From positions 2,852,001-2,916,000 of the forward strand of contig NZ_CP121274.1 of NCBI RefSeq assembly GCF_029639405.1: DNA of 64,000 nucleotides, written 5' to 3'. Positions 1-7,385 of this stretch are shown one piece after another. Both the position numbers and the translations under genes were made by a program. The stretch comes from Microbacterium proteolyticum. Its GTDB lineage: Bacteria; Actinomycetota; Actinomycetes; Actinomycetales; Microbacteriaceae. The notes beneath the pieces are model-generated. The model saw only the letters and a program-made list of their open reading frames with translations, searched no databases and had not been told where the DNA came from. Numbering within the stretch: position 1 is the stretch's first letter; each line of letters opens with the position of its first letter.

Positions 1-641
1 CCGGGGAAGAGCCGGTGGTGCCGGCTCCACGACAGCACGTCCATCGAGAGGAGCGGCGCGTCGGCGAGCTGCACGAAGAAGATGCGGTCTCCGGGGATAT
101 CGGCGATCGCGGCGGGATCGTGTCCGCGCGAGAGCATGTGGAACGAGTCGAGGCAGATGCCCACGGCGGGGTGGTCGGCGAGCTCGACGATCCGCCACGC
201 GCGGCGGTAGTCGTCGACGTAGCGTCCCCACGCGAGGGCTTCGAAGGCGATCCGAATGCCGTAGCCCTCCGCCAGCTCGCCGAGTCGCCGCAGCTGGCTC
301 GCCGACACCGCGTCGTCGTCGACGGTCGCGGTGGCGACGTTGCTGCAGCACAGGACCAGGTCCATGCCGAGGCGCCGCATGAGGCGGAACTTCGCCTCCG
401 CGCGCCGCAGCACGGCCGCGAAGGCCTCTTCGTCGACTCCCTCGACGTCGCGCATCGGCTGGTAGAGGTCGAGGCTGAGCCCGAGTCGTGCGGCGAGGGC
501 CGCGATCTCCTCGGGGCTCTCGGGGGCGGCCAGCAGGTCCGGTTCGAAGATCTCGACGCCGTCGAATCCCGCGGCGGCGCAGGCGTGGAGCTTGTCGGCG
601 AGAGTGCCGCTGACGCACACGGTCGCGATCGAGGTCTTCAT
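1..641 (-). CDS. quiC: 3-dehydroshikimate dehydratase (QuiC-like), C-terminal part beyond the window edge
   Basis: The reverse strand from an ATG at 641 stays open to base 1, giving 213 codons of a longer protein. It starts MKTSIATVCVSGTLADKLHA and continues with GFDGVEIFEPDLL, DLVLCCSNV, IAFEALAWGR, GICLDSFHML and IPGDRIFFVQLADAP. This is the TIM-barrel pattern of bacterial 3-dehydroshikimate dehydratases, which convert 3-dehydroshikimate to protocatechuate in quinate/shikimate catabolism. E134, D165 and Q191 sit where the family places three of its four metal ligands; the fourth lies past the edge. In several bacteria this barrel is fused to an HPPD-like domain, which cannot be judged here. 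A TACATT hexamer at 650-655 (reverse strand) lies 8 bases before the start and overlaps the TetR palindrome, so the gene is probably controlled by the divergent regulator. The general sugar isomerase/epimerase superfamily is the alternative, but motif and context agreement is strong. Confidence 0.88.
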   Translation of the reverse strand, partial: MKTSIATVCVSGTLADKLHACAAAGFDGVEIFEPDLLAAPESPEEIAALAARLGLSLDLYQPMRDVEGVDEEAFAAVLRRAEAKFRLMRRLGMDLVLCCSNVATATVDDDAVSASQLRRLGELAEGYGIRIAFEALAWGRYVDDYRRAWRIVELADHPAVGICLDSFHMLSRGHDPAAIADIPGDRIFFVQLADAPLLSMDVLSWSRHHRLFP

Positions 642-650
642 GTGCGCCGA

Positions 651-668
651 ATGTACCAGCCAGTACAT
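651..668. promoter_or_regulatory. Palindromic operator between quiC and the TetR gene
   Basis: The sequence ATGTACCAGCCAGTACAT consists of perfect 6-base arms (ATGTAC / GTACAT) separated by 6 bases. It overlaps the putative -10 of quiC (650-655, reverse) and occupies the -35 region of the TetR gene. A second copy of the same pattern occurs at 1380-1397. It is inferred to be the binding site of the adjacent TetR protein. Confidence 0.8.
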
Positions 669-679
669 AGCCCGTCCAC

Positions 680-685
680 TAGTCT
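680..685 (+). promoter_or_regulatory. -10 element for a leaderless tetR transcript
   Basis: TAGTCT fits the TANNNT actinobacterial -10 pattern and ends 6 bases before the ATG at 692. There is no Shine-Dalgarno sequence between them, so transcription would begin at or next to the start codon. Confidence 0.6.
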
Positions 686-691
686 GGGCCG

Positions 692-1324
692 ATGCCCGAG
701 GTCCGCCGCGACGCCGAGCGCACCCGCGCCGAGCTCCTCGCCGTCGCGACCGAGGTCTTCGCCGAAGACGGCTACTCCGGCGCCCGAGTCGACGAGATCG
801 CCGCGCGCACCCGCACGACCAAGCGGATGATCTACTACTACTTCGGTGGCAAGGAAGGGCTGTATCGCGCCGTCCTCGAAGAGGCCTACCGCGGAATCCG
901 CGAAGCCGAGCGCGGCATCGATGTCGATCACGCCGACCCCGTTCAGGCGGTGCGCGCGCTCGCCGAGGTCACGTTCGACCATCACGTGCAGCACGACGCG
1001 TTCATCCGTCTCGTCGCGATCGAGAACATCCACCGCGGCGATTTCATCCGGCAGATCGACGGACTGCGCGAGGCCTCGAAGCCCGCGAAGGACGTGCTCG
1101 ACGAGATCCTCCAGCGAGGTCGTGCCGCCGGGCTCTTCCGCGACGACGTCGAGGCGATCGACGTGCACCTGGTGATCAGTGCGTACTGCGTGTTCCAGGT
1201 CGCCAATCGGTACACGTTCGGGCACCTCTTCGACGTCGACATGGCCGAGGCCGGGCGTCGCGCCCACCTGCGGTCCGTCATCGGCGACGTCGTCGTCGGG
1301 TGGCTCACCTCCCCCGCCGCCTGA
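692..1324 (+). CDS. TetR-family transcriptional regulator of shikimate catabolism
   Basis: A 210-aa protein with an N-terminal TetR helix-turn-helix at about residues 8-54, including the pattern RVDEIAARTRTTKRMIYYYF followed by GGKEGLYRAVLEEAYR. The rest is a helical ligand-binding domain. It lies between quiC (divergent) and the dehydrogenase/transporter pair (same strand). Matching palindromes sit on both sides of it, so it probably represses both units and releases them on binding a pathway metabolite such as quinate, shikimate, 3-dehydroshikimate or protocatechuate. The ligand cannot be read from sequence. The ATG at 692 is chosen because it fits the TetR domain start and the leaderless spacing to TAGTCT. 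Unlike the LysR-type QsuR of Corynebacterium, this is a TetR protein. Confidence 0.85.
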   Translation: MPEVRRDAERTRAELLAVATEVFAEDGYSGARVDEIAARTRTTKRMIYYYFGGKEGLYRAVLEEAYRGIREAERGIDVDHADPVQAVRALAEVTFDHHVQHDAFIRLVAIENIHRGDFIRQIDGLREASKPAKDVLDEILQRGRAAGLFRDDVEAIDVHLVISAYCVFQVANRYTFGHLFDVDMAEAGRRAHLRSVIGDVVVGWLTSPAA

Positions 1325-1379
1325 AGCCTCGGCATCCACGCATCTGTTGACAGGCGCCGTTCGTCGTGCTTTTCTGTGA

Positions 1380-1397
1380 ACGTACCGGTTAGTACAT
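1380..1397. promoter_or_regulatory. Second TetR-type operator, upstream of the dehydrogenase/transporter operon
   Basis: ACGTACCGGTTAGTACAT repeats the pattern at 651-668: both copies fit A(T/C)GTACC(A/G)G(C/T)(C/T)AGTACAT, with 14 of 18 positions identical. It contains TACATT (1393-1398), a plausible -10, placing the site over the promoter of the gene starting at 1444. Confidence 0.8.
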
Positions 1398-1443
1398 TCG
1401 GCGGTTGCCGAGAACGACCGGGGTCCGGAAACAAAGGAGTACC

Positions 1444-2325
1444 GTGATCGACTCGCACCCCTACCTCGTGGGCCTCATCGGCGCGGGTGTCCTGCCCTCG
1501 CTGACCCCGCCGATGCACATGGCCGAGGCGCGGTCCCTCGGGCTGACCTACGTCTACCGGCCGCTGGACCTCCCCACCCTCGGCATCGACCCCGAGCGCA
1601 TCGGCGACGTGCTCGCCTGGGCGGAGCGGCTGGGTTACGACGCCGTCAACGTCACGCACCCCTGCAAGCAAAGCGTGCTCGCCCACCTCGATCGCATCGA
1701 TCCCGTGGCCGCCGCGCTCGGCGCGGTCAATACCGTGCTATTCACCCCCGCCGGCCGCGTCGGCTACAACACCGACACGACCGGTTTCGCCGCCGCGTTC
1801 GCCGAGGGCCTGCCGGATGCCGCGACCGATCGGGTCGTCCAGCTCGGCGCCGGTGGGGCCGGCTCGGCCGTCGCGGACGCGCTGCTGCGCTCGGGTACGG
1901 CCCACCTCACCGTCGTCGACCTCGACGCGCAGCGCGCGGGTGCCCTCGTCGGCGACCTCGCGGCCCGGCATCCCTCCGCCGTCGTCGCCGCCGCCGCGCC
2001 GGTCGATCTCGCCGCGGTCCTCGGCCGCGCGGACGGTCTCGTGCACTGCACCCCGGTCGGCATGGCGGAGCACCCCGGACTCCCCCTGGATGCCGACCTC
2101 CTGCGACCCGACCTCTGGGTCGCCGACATCGTCTACCGGCCGCTCGACACCGAGCTGCTGATCGCGGCGCGCGAACGCGGCTGCCGCACCCTGAGTGGCG
2201 GACGCATGGCGGTACACCAGGCCGTCGACGCCTTCGCCCTCATCACGGGGACGCGACCCGACCCCGACCGCATGTCCGCGCACTTCCTCGACCTCGTCGC
2301 CGCCGGCGACGTCCTCGCCCGCTAA
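1444..2325 (+). CDS. Quinate/shikimate dehydrogenase, catabolic AroE paralogue
   Basis: This 293-aa NAD(P)-dependent dehydrogenase oxidises shikimate and/or quinate in a degradative route. The GTG at 1444 is chosen because it follows an AAAGGAGT ribosome-binding site. The substrate loop reads S19-L-T21-P-P-M-H. Anabolic AroE normally has SxSPxxH, whereas Corynebacterium-type quinate/shikimate dehydrogenases have SxT, so quinate use is likely. The catalytic lysine is in NVTHPCK (K75), the second acid in NTDTTGF (D111), and the nucleotide loop is GAGGAG (135-140). The gene is in an operon with the transporter 13 bases downstream, under the operator at 1380-1397. A second, canonical aroE lies at 6549-7385 in the biosynthetic operon. 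Cofactor preference is not settled by sequence alone. Confidence 0.85.
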   Translation: MIDSHPYLVGLIGAGVLPSLTPPMHMAEARSLGLTYVYRPLDLPTLGIDPERIGDVLAWAERLGYDAVNVTHPCKQSVLAHLDRIDPVAAALGAVNTVLFTPAGRVGYNTDTTGFAAAFAEGLPDAATDRVVQLGAGGAGSAVADALLRSGTAHLTVVDLDAQRAGALVGDLAARHPSAVVAAAAPVDLAAVLGRADGLVHCTPVGMAEHPGLPLDADLLRPDLWVADIVYRPLDTELLIAARERGCRTLSGGRMAVHQAVDAFALITGTRPDPDRMSAHFLDLVAAGDVLAR

Positions 2326-2338
2326 GGAGCATCCGTTC

Positions 2339-3658
2339 ATGACCACCACCGCAACGACGCGGAAGACTCCCGTGAAGGCCGCAGCCGCGAGCTTCATGGG
2401 CAGCGCCGTGGAGTACTACGACTTCTTCCTGTTCGGCTCGGCGGCCGCGCTGATCTTCCCCACGGTGTTCTTCCCGTCGGGCGACCAGGCGGCCCTGGTG
2501 ATGTCGTTCGCGACCTTCGGTTTCGCGTACGTCGCGCGCCCGGTCGGCGCCGTCATCCTCGGCCACTACGGCGATCGGATCGGTCGGCAGAAGGTGCTGA
2601 TGTTCACCCTTCTGCTGATGGGTCTGTCGACCTTCATCATCGGATGCCTTCCCGGCTTCGCCCAGATCGGGTGGTTCGCGCCGGCGCTCCTCGTCATCTG
2701 CCGCCTGATGCAGGGTCTCTCGGCGGCCGGTGAGCAGGCCGGAGCCTCCTCGCTCACCCTTGAGCACGCTCCCGAGAACCGTCGTTCGTTCTTCACCTCG
2801 TGGACGCTCACGGGCACGCAGGGCGGCCAGATCCTTGCCGCGCTCATCTTCATCCCCGTCGTGGCCTTGCCGGACGAGATCAAGTTCAGCTGGGGCTGGC
2901 GCGTGCCGTTCTGGCTCAGCGCGCTCGTCGTGATCGTGGCGTTCTTCATCCGTCGGAGCCTCCACGAGACCCCCGAGTTCGAGCAGGCGAAGGCGACCGG
3001 TCAGATCGCCCGGATGCCGCTCATCCCCCTGCTGCGCGACCACTGGCGCGACGTGATCCGCGTGATCTGCTGCGCGTTCATCGCCGCCGTCTCGACCGTG
3101 TTCGGCACGCTCGCCATCGCGTACGGCAAGGCGCAGGGACTCGACGCGAGCGTCACCCTGTGGCTCGTGGTCGTGGCCAACATCGTGGCCCTCGGCACCC
3201 AGCCCCTCTTCGGGCGTCTCGCCGACCGCATCGGACGCAAGCCCGTGTTCATCTACGGCGCCCTGTCGTCGGCGGTCTTCATGCCCTTCTACATCCTGTC
3301 GATGGGCAAGGGGAACGACCTGATCACCTTCGGTCTGGCGATCCTGACCTTCTCGTTCGGGTACGCCGCCGCGAACGCGGTCTGGCCCTCGTTCTACGGC
3401 GAGATGTTCAGCACCCGGGTGCGGTTCTCCGGCATGGCGATCGGCACGCAGCTCGGCTTCCTCATGGCCGGATTCGCGCCCAGCATCGTCGCGGCCCTCG
3501 GCGGCAGCGGCGAGAACGGCTGGATCGTCATCAGCGTCTTCACCGCGGTGATCGCGGTCATCGCGTCGGTGAGCGCGCTCACCGCCCGCGAGACGAAGGA
3601 CGTCCCCACGGCGCGCCTGGGCCAGGCCGCCGAGGAACGCGTCCCCGCGACCGTCTGA
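2339..3658 (+). CDS. MFS transporter of the metabolite:H+ symporter type, probable shikimate/quinate importer
   Basis: A 439-aa membrane protein of the major facilitator superfamily, MHS branch (ShiA/KgtP-like). The family hallmark FMGSAVEYYDFFLFGSAAAL is at the N-terminus. Motif A is seen twice: GHYGDRIGRQKVL after helix 2 and GRLADRIGRKPVF between the two halves. RLMQGLSAAGEQAGAS follows in the first half. Twelve hydrophobic stretches are expected from the length and pattern. The ATG at 2339 follows AAGGAG at 2324-2329. Position directly behind the dehydrogenase suggests uptake of shikimate, quinate or a related hydroaromatic acid by proton symport. The exact substrate is inference. Confidence 0.85.
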   Translation: MTTTATTRKTPVKAAAASFMGSAVEYYDFFLFGSAAALIFPTVFFPSGDQAALVMSFATFGFAYVARPVGAVILGHYGDRIGRQKVLMFTLLLMGLSTFIIGCLPGFAQIGWFAPALLVICRLMQGLSAAGEQAGASSLTLEHAPENRRSFFTSWTLTGTQGGQILAALIFIPVVALPDEIKFSWGWRVPFWLSALVVIVAFFIRRSLHETPEFEQAKATGQIARMPLIPLLRDHWRDVIRVICCAFIAAVSTVFGTLAIAYGKAQGLDASVTLWLVVVANIVALGTQPLFGRLADRIGRKPVFIYGALSSAVFMPFYILSMGKGNDLITFGLAILTFSFGYAAANAVWPSFYGEMFSTRVRFSGMAIGTQLGFLMAGFAPSIVAALGGSGENGWIVISVFTAVIAVIASVSALTARETKDVPTARLGQAAEERVPATV

Positions 3659-3668
3659 TCCCGCAACG

Positions 3669-3710
3669 CCGGAACGGCCCCGTCTCCCGAGGGAGGCGGG
3701 GCCGTTCCGG
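3669..3710. terminator. Bidirectional hairpin terminator between the transporter and aroB
   Basis: CCGGAACGGCCCCG pairs with CGGGGCCGTTCCGG around an inner CTCCC/GGGAG stem. It lies between two convergent genes and can serve both strands. No long T-run follows, as is usual at high GC. Confidence 0.8.
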
Positions 3711-3721
3711 TGTCCGCGGGC

Positions 3722-4798
3722 CTACGCCCCGACCTCCTGGTACGCCGCGAACAGCAGCGACTCGTCGGGGGCCTGCAGCACGGTCGGGCGGGCGAGGTCG
3801 TCGAGCACGATGAAGCGCAGCATGCTGCCGCGGGTCTTCTTGTCGCGCTGCATCGTGGCCTTGAGCGTCTGGAACGCCCCGGCGCGGTAGGTCGTCGGCA
3901 GTCCGAGGGACTCGAGGACCGTCCGGTGGCGCTGGGCCACGTCGTCGGACAGGCGTCCCGCCAGGCGCGACAGCTCGGCGGCGAACACCATGCCGACCGA
4001 GATCGCGGCGCCGTGGCGCCAGCGGTACCGTTCGGCGTGCTCGATGGCGTGACCGAGGGTGTGACCGTAGTTCAGGACTTCGCGCAGGCCCGCCTCGCGC
4101 AGGTCCTCCCCCACGACGCGCGCCTTCATGTCGATCGCGAGCTCGATGCAGCGGCGGAACGCGTCGCCCCGCGGGTCGACGATCCCCGACGGGTCGGCCT
4201 CGATGAGGTCGAGGATCTCCGGATGCCAGATGAACCCGGCCTTCACGACCTCGGCGAAGCCCGCGGTGGCCTCGTTCTTCGAGAGGGTCTCGAGCAGGTC
4301 GAGATCGCAGACGACGGCGTGAGGAGGCCAGAACGCGCCCACGAGGTTCTTGCCCTCGGCGGTGTTGACGCCCGTCTTGCCGCCCACGGCGGCGTCGACC
4401 ATCGCGAGGACCGTCGTCGGCACCTGCACCACCGCGACGCCCCGCAGCCACGTCGCAGCGACGAAACCGGCGAGGTCGGTGACCGATCCGCCGCCGAAAC
4501 CGATGACGGCATCCGTGCGCGTGAAGTCGGCCTGTCCCATGACCTGCCAGCAGAAGGCGGCGACCTCGATGCGCTTGCCCGCCTCGGCATCGGGGATCTC
4601 GGCGAGCAGCACCTGTCGGTCGCCCACGAGCTGTGCGCGCAGCGCCTCGGCCTGAGCCGCGAGCGTCGGCGGGTGCACGATCAAGACCTTCTGCGCGGCC
4701 GCGGGGAGCTTCTCACCGAGCGTGGCCAGCAGGCCGCGTCCGATCGTGATGTCGTAGCCCGGGTCGCCGGCGACGGTGATGGTCGTGGTGTCGGTCAT
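3722..4798 (-). CDS. aroB: 3-dehydroquinate synthase
   Basis: A 358-aa cytoplasmic enzyme of normal family length that cyclises DAHP to 3-dehydroquinate, step two of the shikimate pathway. Visible family blocks are VIGFGGGSVTDLAGFVAAT (dinucleotide and metal region), VQVPTTVLAMVDAAVGGKTG, NLVGAFWPP, the metal-binding EVLNYGHTLGHAIE and the later RDKKTRGSMLRF. It is the last gene of the aroE-aroC-aroK-aroB group. Its ATG (4796-4798) overlaps the aroK stop codon as ATGA, so the two are translationally coupled. No aroQ/aroD dehydratase gene lies in this cluster, so that step is encoded elsewhere. Confidence 0.97.
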   Translation of the reverse strand: MTDTTTITVAGDPGYDITIGRGLLATLGEKLPAAAQKVLIVHPPTLAAQAEALRAQLVGDRQVLLAEIPDAEAGKRIEVAAFCWQVMGQADFTRTDAVIGFGGGSVTDLAGFVAATWLRGVAVVQVPTTVLAMVDAAVGGKTGVNTAEGKNLVGAFWPPHAVVCDLDLLETLSKNEATAGFAEVVKAGFIWHPEILDLIEADPSGIVDPRGDAFRRCIELAIDMKARVVGEDLREAGLREVLNYGHTLGHAIEHAERYRWRHGAAISVGMVFAAELSRLAGRLSDDVAQRHRTVLESLGLPTTYRAGAFQTLKATMQRDKKTRGSMLRFIVLDDLARPTVLQAPDESLLFAAYQEVGA

Positions 4799-5331
4799 GG
4801 GGTCTCCTGGGCCGGGACGGGGCGCGCCCAGGCCACGATGTCGTCGACCACGCGGGCCAGCGGGCCCGAGGACGTGTCGAAAGCGATGTCGGCGGCCGCC
4901 TCGTAGATCGGTCGCCGTTCTTCGTAGATTCGGAGCCAGCGCTCCGCCGGATCCTCGCCGCCCAGCAGGGGGCGTTCGTCTCCGTGGATCCGGGATGCCA
5001 CGACGTGCGGCGCCACGGTCAGCAGCACCACGCGATGCTGCGTCAGGCGCTCGCGCGTGACCGGGTCGAGCACCGCTCCCCCGCCGAGCGCGACGACACC
5101 GCCCCGCTCGAGCGCCTCGGCGACGGCATCCCGTTCCACCGCGCGGAAGTGCGCCTCGCCGTGGGCGAGGAAGAGATCGCGGATCGGGCCGTGGTCGCGC
5201 ACGACGATCTTGTCGGTGTCGCTGAACGTCTCACCGAGGGCACGCGCGACGCGCCGCCCGACGCTCGTCTTGCCCGCCCCCATCGGTCCGATGAGCACGA
5301 GCGCGCCGCGGCCCGCCTCAGCCGAGGTCAT
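4795..5331 (-). CDS. aroK: Shikimate kinase
   Basis: A 178-aa P-loop kinase that phosphorylates shikimate with ATP. The Walker A motif [11 protein letters not shown] starts around residue 14. The DTD of the shikimate-binding motif follows in [20 protein letters not shown] is the second substrate motif, and DERPLLGG forms the lid with its arginine. The ATG at 5331 gives the usual kinase N-terminus; further upstream the frame runs into aroC and lacks conservation. The 5' end overlaps the aroC stop by 14 bases and the 3' end overlaps the aroB start by 4. Confidence 0.96.
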
Positions 5332-6544
5332 GCGCGAGCAACGCCGCGTCGGAGGCGTCGGTGGTGCGCAGCGTCTCGGGCAGGTGCGCGAGGTACGCCT
5401 CGAGGTTGCGGCGGGTCTCGGCGACGTTGTCGCCGCCGAACTTCTCCAGGACCGCGTCGGCCAGCGTGACCGCGACCATCGCTTCGGCCACGACACCCGC
5501 GGCAGGGACCGCGCACACGTCGGAGCGCTGGTGGTGCGCGGCGGCCGTGTCGCCCGTGGCGACGTCGACGGTCCGGAGCGCGTGCGGAATCGTGGCGATG
5601 GGCTTCATGCCCGCGCGCACCCGCAGCACGGTGCCGGTCGACATGCCGCCCTCGGTGCCGCCCGCGCGGTCGGAGGAACGGGTGATGCCGTCTCCGGTCG
5701 CGAACAGCTCGTCGTGCGCCTGCGAGCCGCGGCGGGTCGTGGTGAGGAAGCCGTCGCCGACCTCGACCCCCTTGATCGCCTGGATGCTCATCAGGGCCTG
5801 GGCGAGCTTGGCATCCAGTCGACGATCCCACTGCACGTGCGAGCCGAGCCCCGGCGGCAGGCCGTACGCGAGCACCTCGACGATACCGCCGAGCGTGTCG
5901 CCGGCCTTCTTCGCGTCGTCGACCTCGGCGACCATCGCGGCGGAGGTCTCGGGGTCGAAGCAGCGCAGCGGATCGGCGTCGAGGAGGTCGACGTCGTCGG
6001 GCGTCGGCAGCGCCGCACCCTCGGGCACGCGCACCGGGCCGATGGAGAGCGTGTGGCTGACGAGTCGGATGCCGAGCTCGCCGAGGAACGCGCGCGCGAC
6101 GGCGCCGAGCGCGACGCGGGCCGCGGTCTCGCGGGCGGACGCGCGCTCGAGGATCGGTCGCGCCTCGTCGAAGCCGTACTTCTGCATGCCGACGAGGTCG
6201 GCGTGACCCGGGCGGGGACGCGTGAGCGCCGCACCGCGACCGCGCGAACGGTCGGACAGCTCGACCGGCTCGGGGCTCATGACCTCGACCCACTTCGGCC
6301 ACTCGGTGTTGCCGATGCGCAGCGCGATGGGGCTGCCGATCGTGAAACCGTGCACGATGCCGGTCGACAGCGTGAGCTCGTCCTCCTCGAACTTCATGCG
6401 CGAGCCGCGGCCATAGCCGAGCTTGCGCCGGGCCAGGTCCGCGCGGATCTGCGCGGGAGAGATCGGGACGCCGGCCGGCATCCCCTCCATGAGGGCGACC
6501 AGTTCGGGACCGTGGGATTCCCCGGCCGTGAGCACGCGAAGCAT
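5318..6544 (-). CDS. aroC: Chorismate synthase
   Basis: A 408-aa FMN-dependent lyase converting EPSP to chorismate. It begins [21 protein letters not shown] and carries the other family signatures: [48 protein letters not shown], and [10 protein letters not shown] near the end of the core. The start at 6544 follows a GGAGG about 9 bases upstream and sits 4 bases after the aroE stop. It is the fifth-to-last gene in the biosynthetic operon order and is translated together with aroK through an overlap. Confidence 0.97.
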
Positions 6545-6548
6545 GCCC

Positions 6549-7385
6549 CTATCCTCCCACGAGCGCGACACGCATCGCGGCGAGCACGGCGTCCTCGCGC
6601 TCGAGCGGGACCGCGGGGTCCCCGCCCACGAACACCCGCACCTGCAGCAGGGCCTGGTGCAGCAGCATCGGCAGGCCGTTGATCGCCGCGTTCCCCGCCG
6701 CGAGCCACTGCTCGGCGAGCGACGTCGGCCAGTTCCCGTACACGACGTCGACGAGCAGCCCGCCGTTCTCGGCGTAGGGACGGATGCCGGCACCGGCATC
6801 CACTCCCCCGGGCAGCGCCCCGATCGTGACGGCGACCGGGTCCGGCGTGCCGGGGGCGTCGAAAGCGGACGGGACGACCTCGACGCCCACGGACGCCCCG
6901 AGTGCGCGCAACGGCTCCACGGCCTCCGGGCGCCGGGCCACGACCTCGACGCCCGGAGCGCCGAGTTCGGCCAGCGACAGCACGGCGGAGGTCGCGGTCG
7001 CACCCGCGCCGAGGATCCGCGCGGCCCGGGGCCGGGTGACGCCGGCCTCCCGCAGCGCGCGCGCCAGTCCCCCGACGTCGGTGTTGAAGCCGCGTGGCCC
7101 GTCGTCGGTCAGCAGGTAGGTGTTCACCGCGCCTGTGCGCAGCGCCGCGTCGTCGAGCGATGCCGCCGACGTCGCCGCGACGTTCTTCAGCGGCATCGTC
7201 AGCGACAGGCCCCGCCAGGTGGCATCCAGGTTCTCCAGCGCCGCGGGGAACCCCGCCTCGGTGACGCGCTGACGCCCGTACTCCCACGGCAGACCCAGCT
7301 CGCGGTACGCCGCCGCGTGCAGCGCCGGCGACCGCGAGTGGTCGATCGGATCTCCCCAGACGGCGAGCCGGGCCGGGGTCAGCAT
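6549..7385 (-). CDS. aroE: Shikimate dehydrogenase, biosynthetic
   Basis: A 278-aa NADP-dependent enzyme reducing 3-dehydroshikimate to shikimate. The substrate loop is the canonical [13 protein letters not shown] (S-x-S). LSLTMPLKN holds the catalytic lysine, GFNTDVGG the second acid, and LGAGATATS the nucleotide-binding turn. [13 protein letters not shown] is the conserved C-terminal substrate helix. The ATG at 7385 overlaps the mltG stop by 7 bases. Its presence together with the catabolic paralogue at 1444-2325 separates the two functions. Somewhat low-complexity segments in the middle are ordinary for high-GC actinobacteria. Confidence 0.95.

Follow-up and report, generated by a model that had tools for sequence, protein, structure and literature searches.

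The genes considered here lie at one end of a 64,000-nucleotide stretch of the Microbacterium proteolyticum genome (the window). At its edge is the 5' part of quiC (positions 1–641, minus strand), the whole of which (L007:8815–10641, L007 being the locus of the window itself) encodes a two-domain 3-dehydroshikimate dehydratase: the portion inside the window scores 283 bits against the QuiC model NF042435, and the entire protein matches PDB entry 5hmq with an E-value of 1.5e-137. Since the match to the QuiC model leaves out the first nine residues of the longest open frame, the start codon was placed at 641, 9 bp past the first of two palindromes described below, and an ATG within that palindrome was rejected as the start. 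Beyond the edge of the window, quiC is immediately followed by aroQ (L007:8343–8801), encoding a type II 3-dehydroquinate dehydratase. This is the sole 3-dehydroquinate dehydratase gene detected in the genome, where a type I enzyme was not found. Divergent from quiC is the regulatory gene tetR (692–1324, plus strand), followed on the same strand by a quinate/shikimate-type dehydrogenase gene (1444–2325; PRK12549, 393 bits, above cut-off), whose nearest solved structure is the quinate/shikimate dehydrogenase 3jyo (E 4e-68), and by a gene for a shikimate-transporter-like metabolite:H+ symporter of the MFS type (2339–3658), which matches TIGR00883 (351 bits) and the shikimate transporter model PRK09952 (267 bits), in both cases under the curated cut-off. 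With this reservation for the transporter, a 3-dehydroshikimate dehydratase, a quinate/shikimate-type dehydrogenase and an uptake gene occur together. The group is bounded by aroB (3722–4798, minus strand; TIGR01357, above cut-off). Two adjacent Dioxygenase_C genes (C2:920.4–921.3 kb), identified to Pfam family level, lie 1.9 Mb from the cassette; such a pair would be expected of pcaGH, and they are candidates for protocatechuate ring cleavage.

The 210-residue product of tetR gives matches above cut-off to PF00440 (TetR_N, the N-terminal helix-turn-helix; 52.9 bits against a cut-off of 24) and to PF17938 (TetR_C_29, a TetR-type ligand/dimer domain at the C-terminus; 144 bits against 26.2), and its AlphaFold2 model is all helical, with a mean pLDDT of 91.2. 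LysR models were absent from the profile matches of this linked gene, to which the check was confined. The recognition-helix residues TTKRMIYYYF are 98–100% conserved among 81 sequences, KRMIYYYF itself being among the six search words, and the C-terminal domain contains conserved polar residues such as R88, H98, E111, N112, H159 and N172. The nearest solved relative by sequence is 3npi (115 bits over residues 14–207), a TetR-family structure from Corynebacterium diphtheriae; it is annotated just as a TetR family regulatory protein, and neither a function nor an operator was found for it.

Predicted operators and promoters

The initial annotation had drawn attention to two palindromes on either side of tetR, identical at 14 of 18 positions, and direct reading of the sequence bears this out. 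Operator 1 (ATGTACCAGCCAGTACAT, 651–668; 20-mer core 650–669) lies between the divergent quiC and tetR, ending 23 bp before the tetR start, while operator 2 (ACGTACCGGTTAGTACAT, 1380–1397; 20-mer core 1379–1398) lies upstream of the dehydrogenase–transporter operon. A search of the window for AYGTAC-N6-GTACAT with up to two mismatches returned five matches, four of which are operators 1 and 2 read on both strands; in 100 shuffled controls the number of matches averaged 0.95 and never exceeded 4. The genome-wide search that had been suggested for the longer form AYGTACC-N4-AGTACAT was also carried out, over 3.97 Mb in two contigs, and it revealed no further copy at 0–1 mismatches. At up to two mismatches there were seven matches (three forward, four reverse), of which three are operators 1 and 2 (651–668 matching on the minus strand too) and the other four lie elsewhere with two mismatches each, the reversed-pattern control giving three. 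The symmetric 20-mer WAYGTAC-N6-GTACRTW occurs at exactly two sites in the genome, operators 1 and 2, against no control matches. Likewise, no operator above 9 bits was present in the 18 kb surrounding the two adjacent Dioxygenase_C genes; of the Dioxygenase_C matches, which include a third at 3672 kb, the scan covered that pair.

The promoters assigned here to quiC, tetR and the dehydrogenase gene are predictions; a generic scan of positions 560–1500 with a strict sigma-70 consensus and a terminator search returned no promoter on either side and no terminator. On the quiC side, sequence and the comparison of relatives place a putative -10 element, TACATT (650–655, minus strand), within operator 1, separated by 17 nt from a putative -35 element, TGGACG (673–678, minus strand), assigned from sequence and missed by the generic scan. 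Because TACATT stands 8 nt from the quiC ATG, a leaderless transcript is likely, and the quiC promoter is probably of this type with its -10 inside the operator. The spacing is conserved: the operator 20-mer ends 6–8 nt before the quiC start in all 12 Microbacterium-type loci, and 6–9 nt before it in 21 of the 39 loci that have a quiC-side site above 9 bits. For tetR, the putative -10 is TAGTCT (680–685, plus strand), an element of the TANNNT type 6 nt before the ATG. Such an element is found 6–7 nt before the tetR start in the 12 Microbacterium-type loci, and 19–25 nt before the first matched tetR codon in nine others, in which the start codon itself was not placed. Operator 1 would serve here also, its position 23 bp before the tetR start making autoregulation likely.

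The arrangement at the dehydrogenase gene appears to be different. It had been claimed that each palindrome carries or touches a TACATT -10 element, and while the copy at 655–650 is indeed well placed for quiC, the claim is weakened on the dehydrogenase side, where TACATT (1393–1398) lies inside operator 2 and the conserved element is instead TTGACA (1347–1352, plus strand), a putative -35 assigned by conservation. TTGACA or TTGACG precedes the operator 2 20-mer by 26–27 bp in all 12 Microbacterium-type loci, which would put operator 2 near the start of transcription; the dehydrogenase -10 is probably better placed just upstream of operator 2, at a position that would fit TTGACA.

Occurrence of the predicted operator in related loci and genomes

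To the window's own locus were added those of the best 80 of at least 570 confirmed relatives of the TetR protein, giving 81 loci, in which relatives (tblastn above 150 bits) were found of quiC in 67, of the dehydrogenase gene in 64 and of the transporter gene in 52. Six loci (L034, L036, L037, L058, L065 and L066) have none of the three nearby, so some of these TetR relatives may have another job. A site matrix was trained on the 12 Microbacterium-type loci (L007–L016, L018 and L027; 14 distinct sites) and applied to the remaining 69, of which 61 contain at least one site above 12 bits. With up to four sites kept per locus, these 69 loci gave 86 sites, whereas five Markov simulations of the same sequence gave 1, 1, 0, 2 and 0. 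When the training loci are counted as well, the 81 loci contain 111 positions above 12 bits, and their reversed sequences none. Most of the sites outside training (78 of 86, in 54 of 69 loci) precede the start of quiC, tetR or the dehydrogenase or transporter gene, as placed by tblastn, by no more than 160 bp, and a site is conserved upstream of the dehydrogenase gene in related loci. The exceptions are seven loci whose sites all lie more than 160 bp away from these four starts (L033, L037, L038, L039, L042, L044 and L068), and eight without any site above 12 bits (L034, L036, L043, L047, L053, L063, L065 and L066). Loci with the operator come from Microbacterium, Mycolicibacterium, Gordonia, Nocardioides, Actinoplanes, Geodermatophilus and Streptomyces, so that conservation, the lack of which in related loci was to count against the initial proposal, is seen at corresponding positions across several actinobacterial orders. 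The view that the two-operator arrangement of the window is a local instance of a widespread actinobacterial TetR regulon appears to be right in substance.

Several of these loci show individual features. Upstream of the transporter gene in L054, L071, L083, L085, L072 and L046, overlapping half-sites that resemble those of the operator recur every 15 bp (GGTACGTAACCAGTTGGTACATA type), with three consecutive sites in L085 and two in each of the other five, as though TetR dimers could bind adjacently. L099 (4689–11927) contains an alternative cluster, in which TRAP transporter genes are accompanied by genes for a dehydrogenase, a hydrolase of the phosphotriesterase family, a protocatechuate dioxygenase and TetR. 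The sites there separate quiC from a TRAP transporter gene, which is followed by the genes for the dehydrogenase, a DctP protein, the phosphotriesterase-family protein and TetR. L033 and L041 resemble L099 in the layout of their open frames, genes having been annotated in L099 only. A lactonase-like gene adjoins the transporter gene in L094, with a similar-looking frame in L091, and the regulon may thus include the hydrolysis of a lactone or an ester. L091 (4493–6229) also has a 4-hydroxybenzoate 3-monooxygenase-like gene near the genes for a dehydrogenase and for a TetR relative of the cassette regulator, which suggests a wider funnelling into protocatechuate in that genome.

TetR proteins are known to bind inverted repeats beside their own gene, and operator 1 is so placed with respect to tetR. 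It is nonetheless conceivable that the palindromes serve some other regulator of aromatic catabolism, encoded elsewhere and perhaps an IclR- or LysR-type protein, with TetR as a bystander. The association of site and regulator across genomes bears directly on this. Of 198 genomes of the host's order, 15 gave a match to the TetR protein (E ≤ 1e-40), 44 gave one to quiC (E ≤ 1e-60) and 11 contain the strict site. The strict site was present in 10 of the 15 genomes with TetR and in 1 of the 183 without (Fisher p 1.6e-12), and when the 44 quiC genomes are taken by themselves, 10 of the 13 that have TetR contain it and none of the 31 others does (p 1.2e-7); these p-values overstate the case because the genomes are related, the ten with both site and TetR spanning five genera. 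In the single genome having the strict site without TetR (G131) the spacer is unlike that of the operators. In two genomes (G078 and G176) tetR is unlinked to quiC and far from it, and the one strict site stands just behind tetR, before a transporter frame and away from quiC; of the two loci concerned, L094 has a frame behind the site that matches shikimate-transporter models, and L091 has one that is similar by appearance only. The strict site is missing from five of the 15 TetR genomes of the order (G162, G139, G028, G066 and G168), G162 having a variant site of 24.8 bits and G139 none above 9 bits. Over the host's class, an exact site lies within 6 kb of the gene in 10 of 22 TetR-bearing genomes; a looser pattern matches in 61 of 296 genomes of the class against 24 for the reversed control, so that many such matches arise by chance. 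Overall, the presence of the site follows tetR rather than quiC, which gives comparative support to the initial reading of one local TetR protein serving both quiC and the dehydrogenase–transporter operon.

A role for an unlinked regulator draws some encouragement from L092 and L093, in which the site is flanked by a related dehydrogenase gene on one side and an IclR-type gene on the other, and from a survey of IclR proteins, the available text of which predicts regulons that include quinate/shikimate genes and tandem binding sites about 20 nt apart for more than half of the IclR groups (PMC8222616). In both L092 and L093, however, a TetR relative of the cassette regulator is encoded within 2 kb of the site, and this, together with the counts above, makes a bystander TetR very improbable.

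Two further sets of loci were noted in the course of these comparisons. In another Microbacterium genome, G517 (L112 and L116), the cassette lacks tetR, yet the interval from quiC to the dehydrogenase gene retains two sites, of 29.1 and 22.7 bits; the only TetR match in that genome is unlinked, belongs to the same family and has 69% identity, and no site above 12 bits was found in the 16 kb around it. In L101, L102 and L103, ATGTACCAnnTGGTACAT-type sites accompany another TetR gene, two of the three loci having a second such site at a distance of 16 bp, and no match to quiC, the dehydrogenase or the transporter was found in these regions. The idea that the half-site is exclusive to the cassette TetR was rejected on reading these three regions. 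This other TetR has a helix of the type [TS]SHRMLxxHF, with the RM pair in common with the cassette TetR, which is suggestive, and no more, of a common reading of the half-site by both types.

Proposed regulation and known systems

Taken together, the sequence comparisons make it very probable that TetR is a local repressor of quiC–aroQ and of the dehydrogenase–transporter operon, acting through two operators and released by a ligand. A TetR dimer would bind the two near-identical palindromes. At operator 1, which would hold the quiC -10 on the minus strand and overlap the expected -35 region of tetR, binding would switch off quiC–aroQ and autoregulate tetR; at operator 2, just downstream of the predicted dehydrogenase promoter, it would block transcription of the dehydrogenase–transporter operon. 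A metabolite of shikimate or quinate catabolism would then bind the C-terminal domain and cause TetR to leave the DNA. In the derepressed cell the MFS protein would import shikimate or quinate for oxidation by the dehydrogenase, AroQ would dehydrate 3-dehydroquinate, and QuiC would turn 3-dehydroshikimate into protocatechuate.

A TetR protein can act as an activator too, and one that binds both sites could be mainly an activator, or a dual regulator. At the dehydrogenase gene the geometry leaves room for this, as operator 2 lies downstream of TTGACA yet holds TACATT, a possible -10. The most plausible quiC -10, on the other hand, lies within operator 1, as would fit steric repression, and activation as the main mode, or a dual mode, is considered very improbable. 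That the palindromes are chance or promoter-composition features with no regulator has negligible probability: TACATT is -10-like and promoters could explain part of their similarity, but the simulated and reversed-sequence counts, and the genome's lack of another copy at 0–1 mismatches, speak strongly against it.

As a ligand-released repressor, TetR would resemble classical TetR, QacR and RutR in its domain make-up, in having a palindromic operator beside its own gene and in probable ligand-induced release, and would differ from them in operator sequence (AACGTACYRGTTNGTACATT type) and target pathway. PcaU, PcaR and PobR, which are IclR-type regulators of quinate/shikimate and protocatechuate genes, are alike in what they control and differ in protein family. 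The closest parallel in gene content is provided by Corynebacterium glutamicum, for which the available text of two reports describes QsuR as a LysR-type, chorismate-dependent activator of the qsuABCD operon (PMC11802643, PMC11258901). The same pathway genes are there under one local regulator, namely qsuB (3-dehydroshikimate dehydratase), qsuC (3-dehydroquinate dehydratase), qsuD (quinate/shikimate dehydrogenase) and a transporter gene (PMC11802643, PMC11258901); QsuR differs in being LysR-type and acting on one operon, whereas the Microbacterium protein is TetR-type and faces two operons through two palindromes. ShiR, another LysR-type regulator, has been used as a shikimate sensor, according to the available text (PMC11258901). 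No TetR regulator of quinate/shikimate catabolism was among the literature matches listed, consisting of open-access titles and the beginnings of abstracts. Within such partial sources, control of this catabolism is described for LysR- and IclR-type proteins, and a TetR-type repressor with a defined operator is predicted here as another solution, one that these sources were not found to describe for this pathway. Such a regulator could supply a biosensor for metabolites of the shikimate pathway.

The cassette within the aro cluster

When positions 1–7383 of the window are taken with L007:8343–13722, the catabolic cassette (quiC, tetR, and the dehydrogenase and transporter genes) is found between aroB and aroQ. 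This position raises the question of how cells maintain biosynthesis when catabolism draws on an intermediate common to both. In all 12 of the Microbacterium cassette loci of this type examined in this respect (L007, L009–L012, L015, L016, L018, L027 and L111–L113; the set does not include L008, L013 and L014), the transporter end of the cassette faces aroB and the quiC end faces aroQ; L111 and L027 probably come from one genome, and L112 is without tetR. Other layouts occur in the genus, L114 having aroQ behind quiC and no aroB within 19.5 kb, and L092 having neither; outside Microbacterium, L017 and L021 have aroQ only, L025 aroB and aroK only, and L031 and L045 neither. Three of four cassette-free Microbacterium loci have aroK, aroB and aroQ one after another on the same strand, two of the three with a gap of about 0.6 kb between aroB and aroQ; L115, the remaining locus, yielded aroQ alone. 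From the comparison of gene order in loci with and without it, the cassette appears to have been inserted between aroB and aroQ in Microbacterium.

A type II dehydroquinase was detected in 57 of 59 Microbacterium genomes, as a single copy in 55. A quiC match was found in 12 of the 59, with aroQ directly behind quiC in 6 of the 12; two quiC-bearing genomes that are 87–88% complete (G508 and G518) gave no aroQ match. It is tempting to extend the model, and to regard TetR as a widespread actinobacterial sensor of a shikimate-pathway intermediate at the point where aromatic biosynthesis and catabolism meet, with aroQ being co-transcribed with quiC in Microbacterium, where the cassette would have split the aro cluster. 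If so, the repressor would influence both directions of the pathway, and would need a shared signal such as 3-dehydroquinate, 3-dehydroshikimate or shikimate. This extension is regarded as doubtful. Upstream of aroQ, a TANNNT element was read by eye at 6–7 nt from the start in all 10 cassette loci inspected and in two of the three without a cassette, so that aroQ probably keeps a leaderless promoter of its own and full dependence on the TetR switch is unlikely; the case for aroQ depending solely on the quiC promoter is weakened by the same element.

At the other end of the cassette, a very stable hairpin with a 22-bp stem (3665–3714) occupies the space between the convergent transporter and aroB genes. 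It is probably a two-way terminator, which should stop read-through from aroB. The folding energy of positions 3660–3720 is -59.7 kcal/mol (z -9.7), and the six other transporter–aroB junction hairpins that were folded, without shuffle controls, gave values of -36 to -52 kcal/mol.
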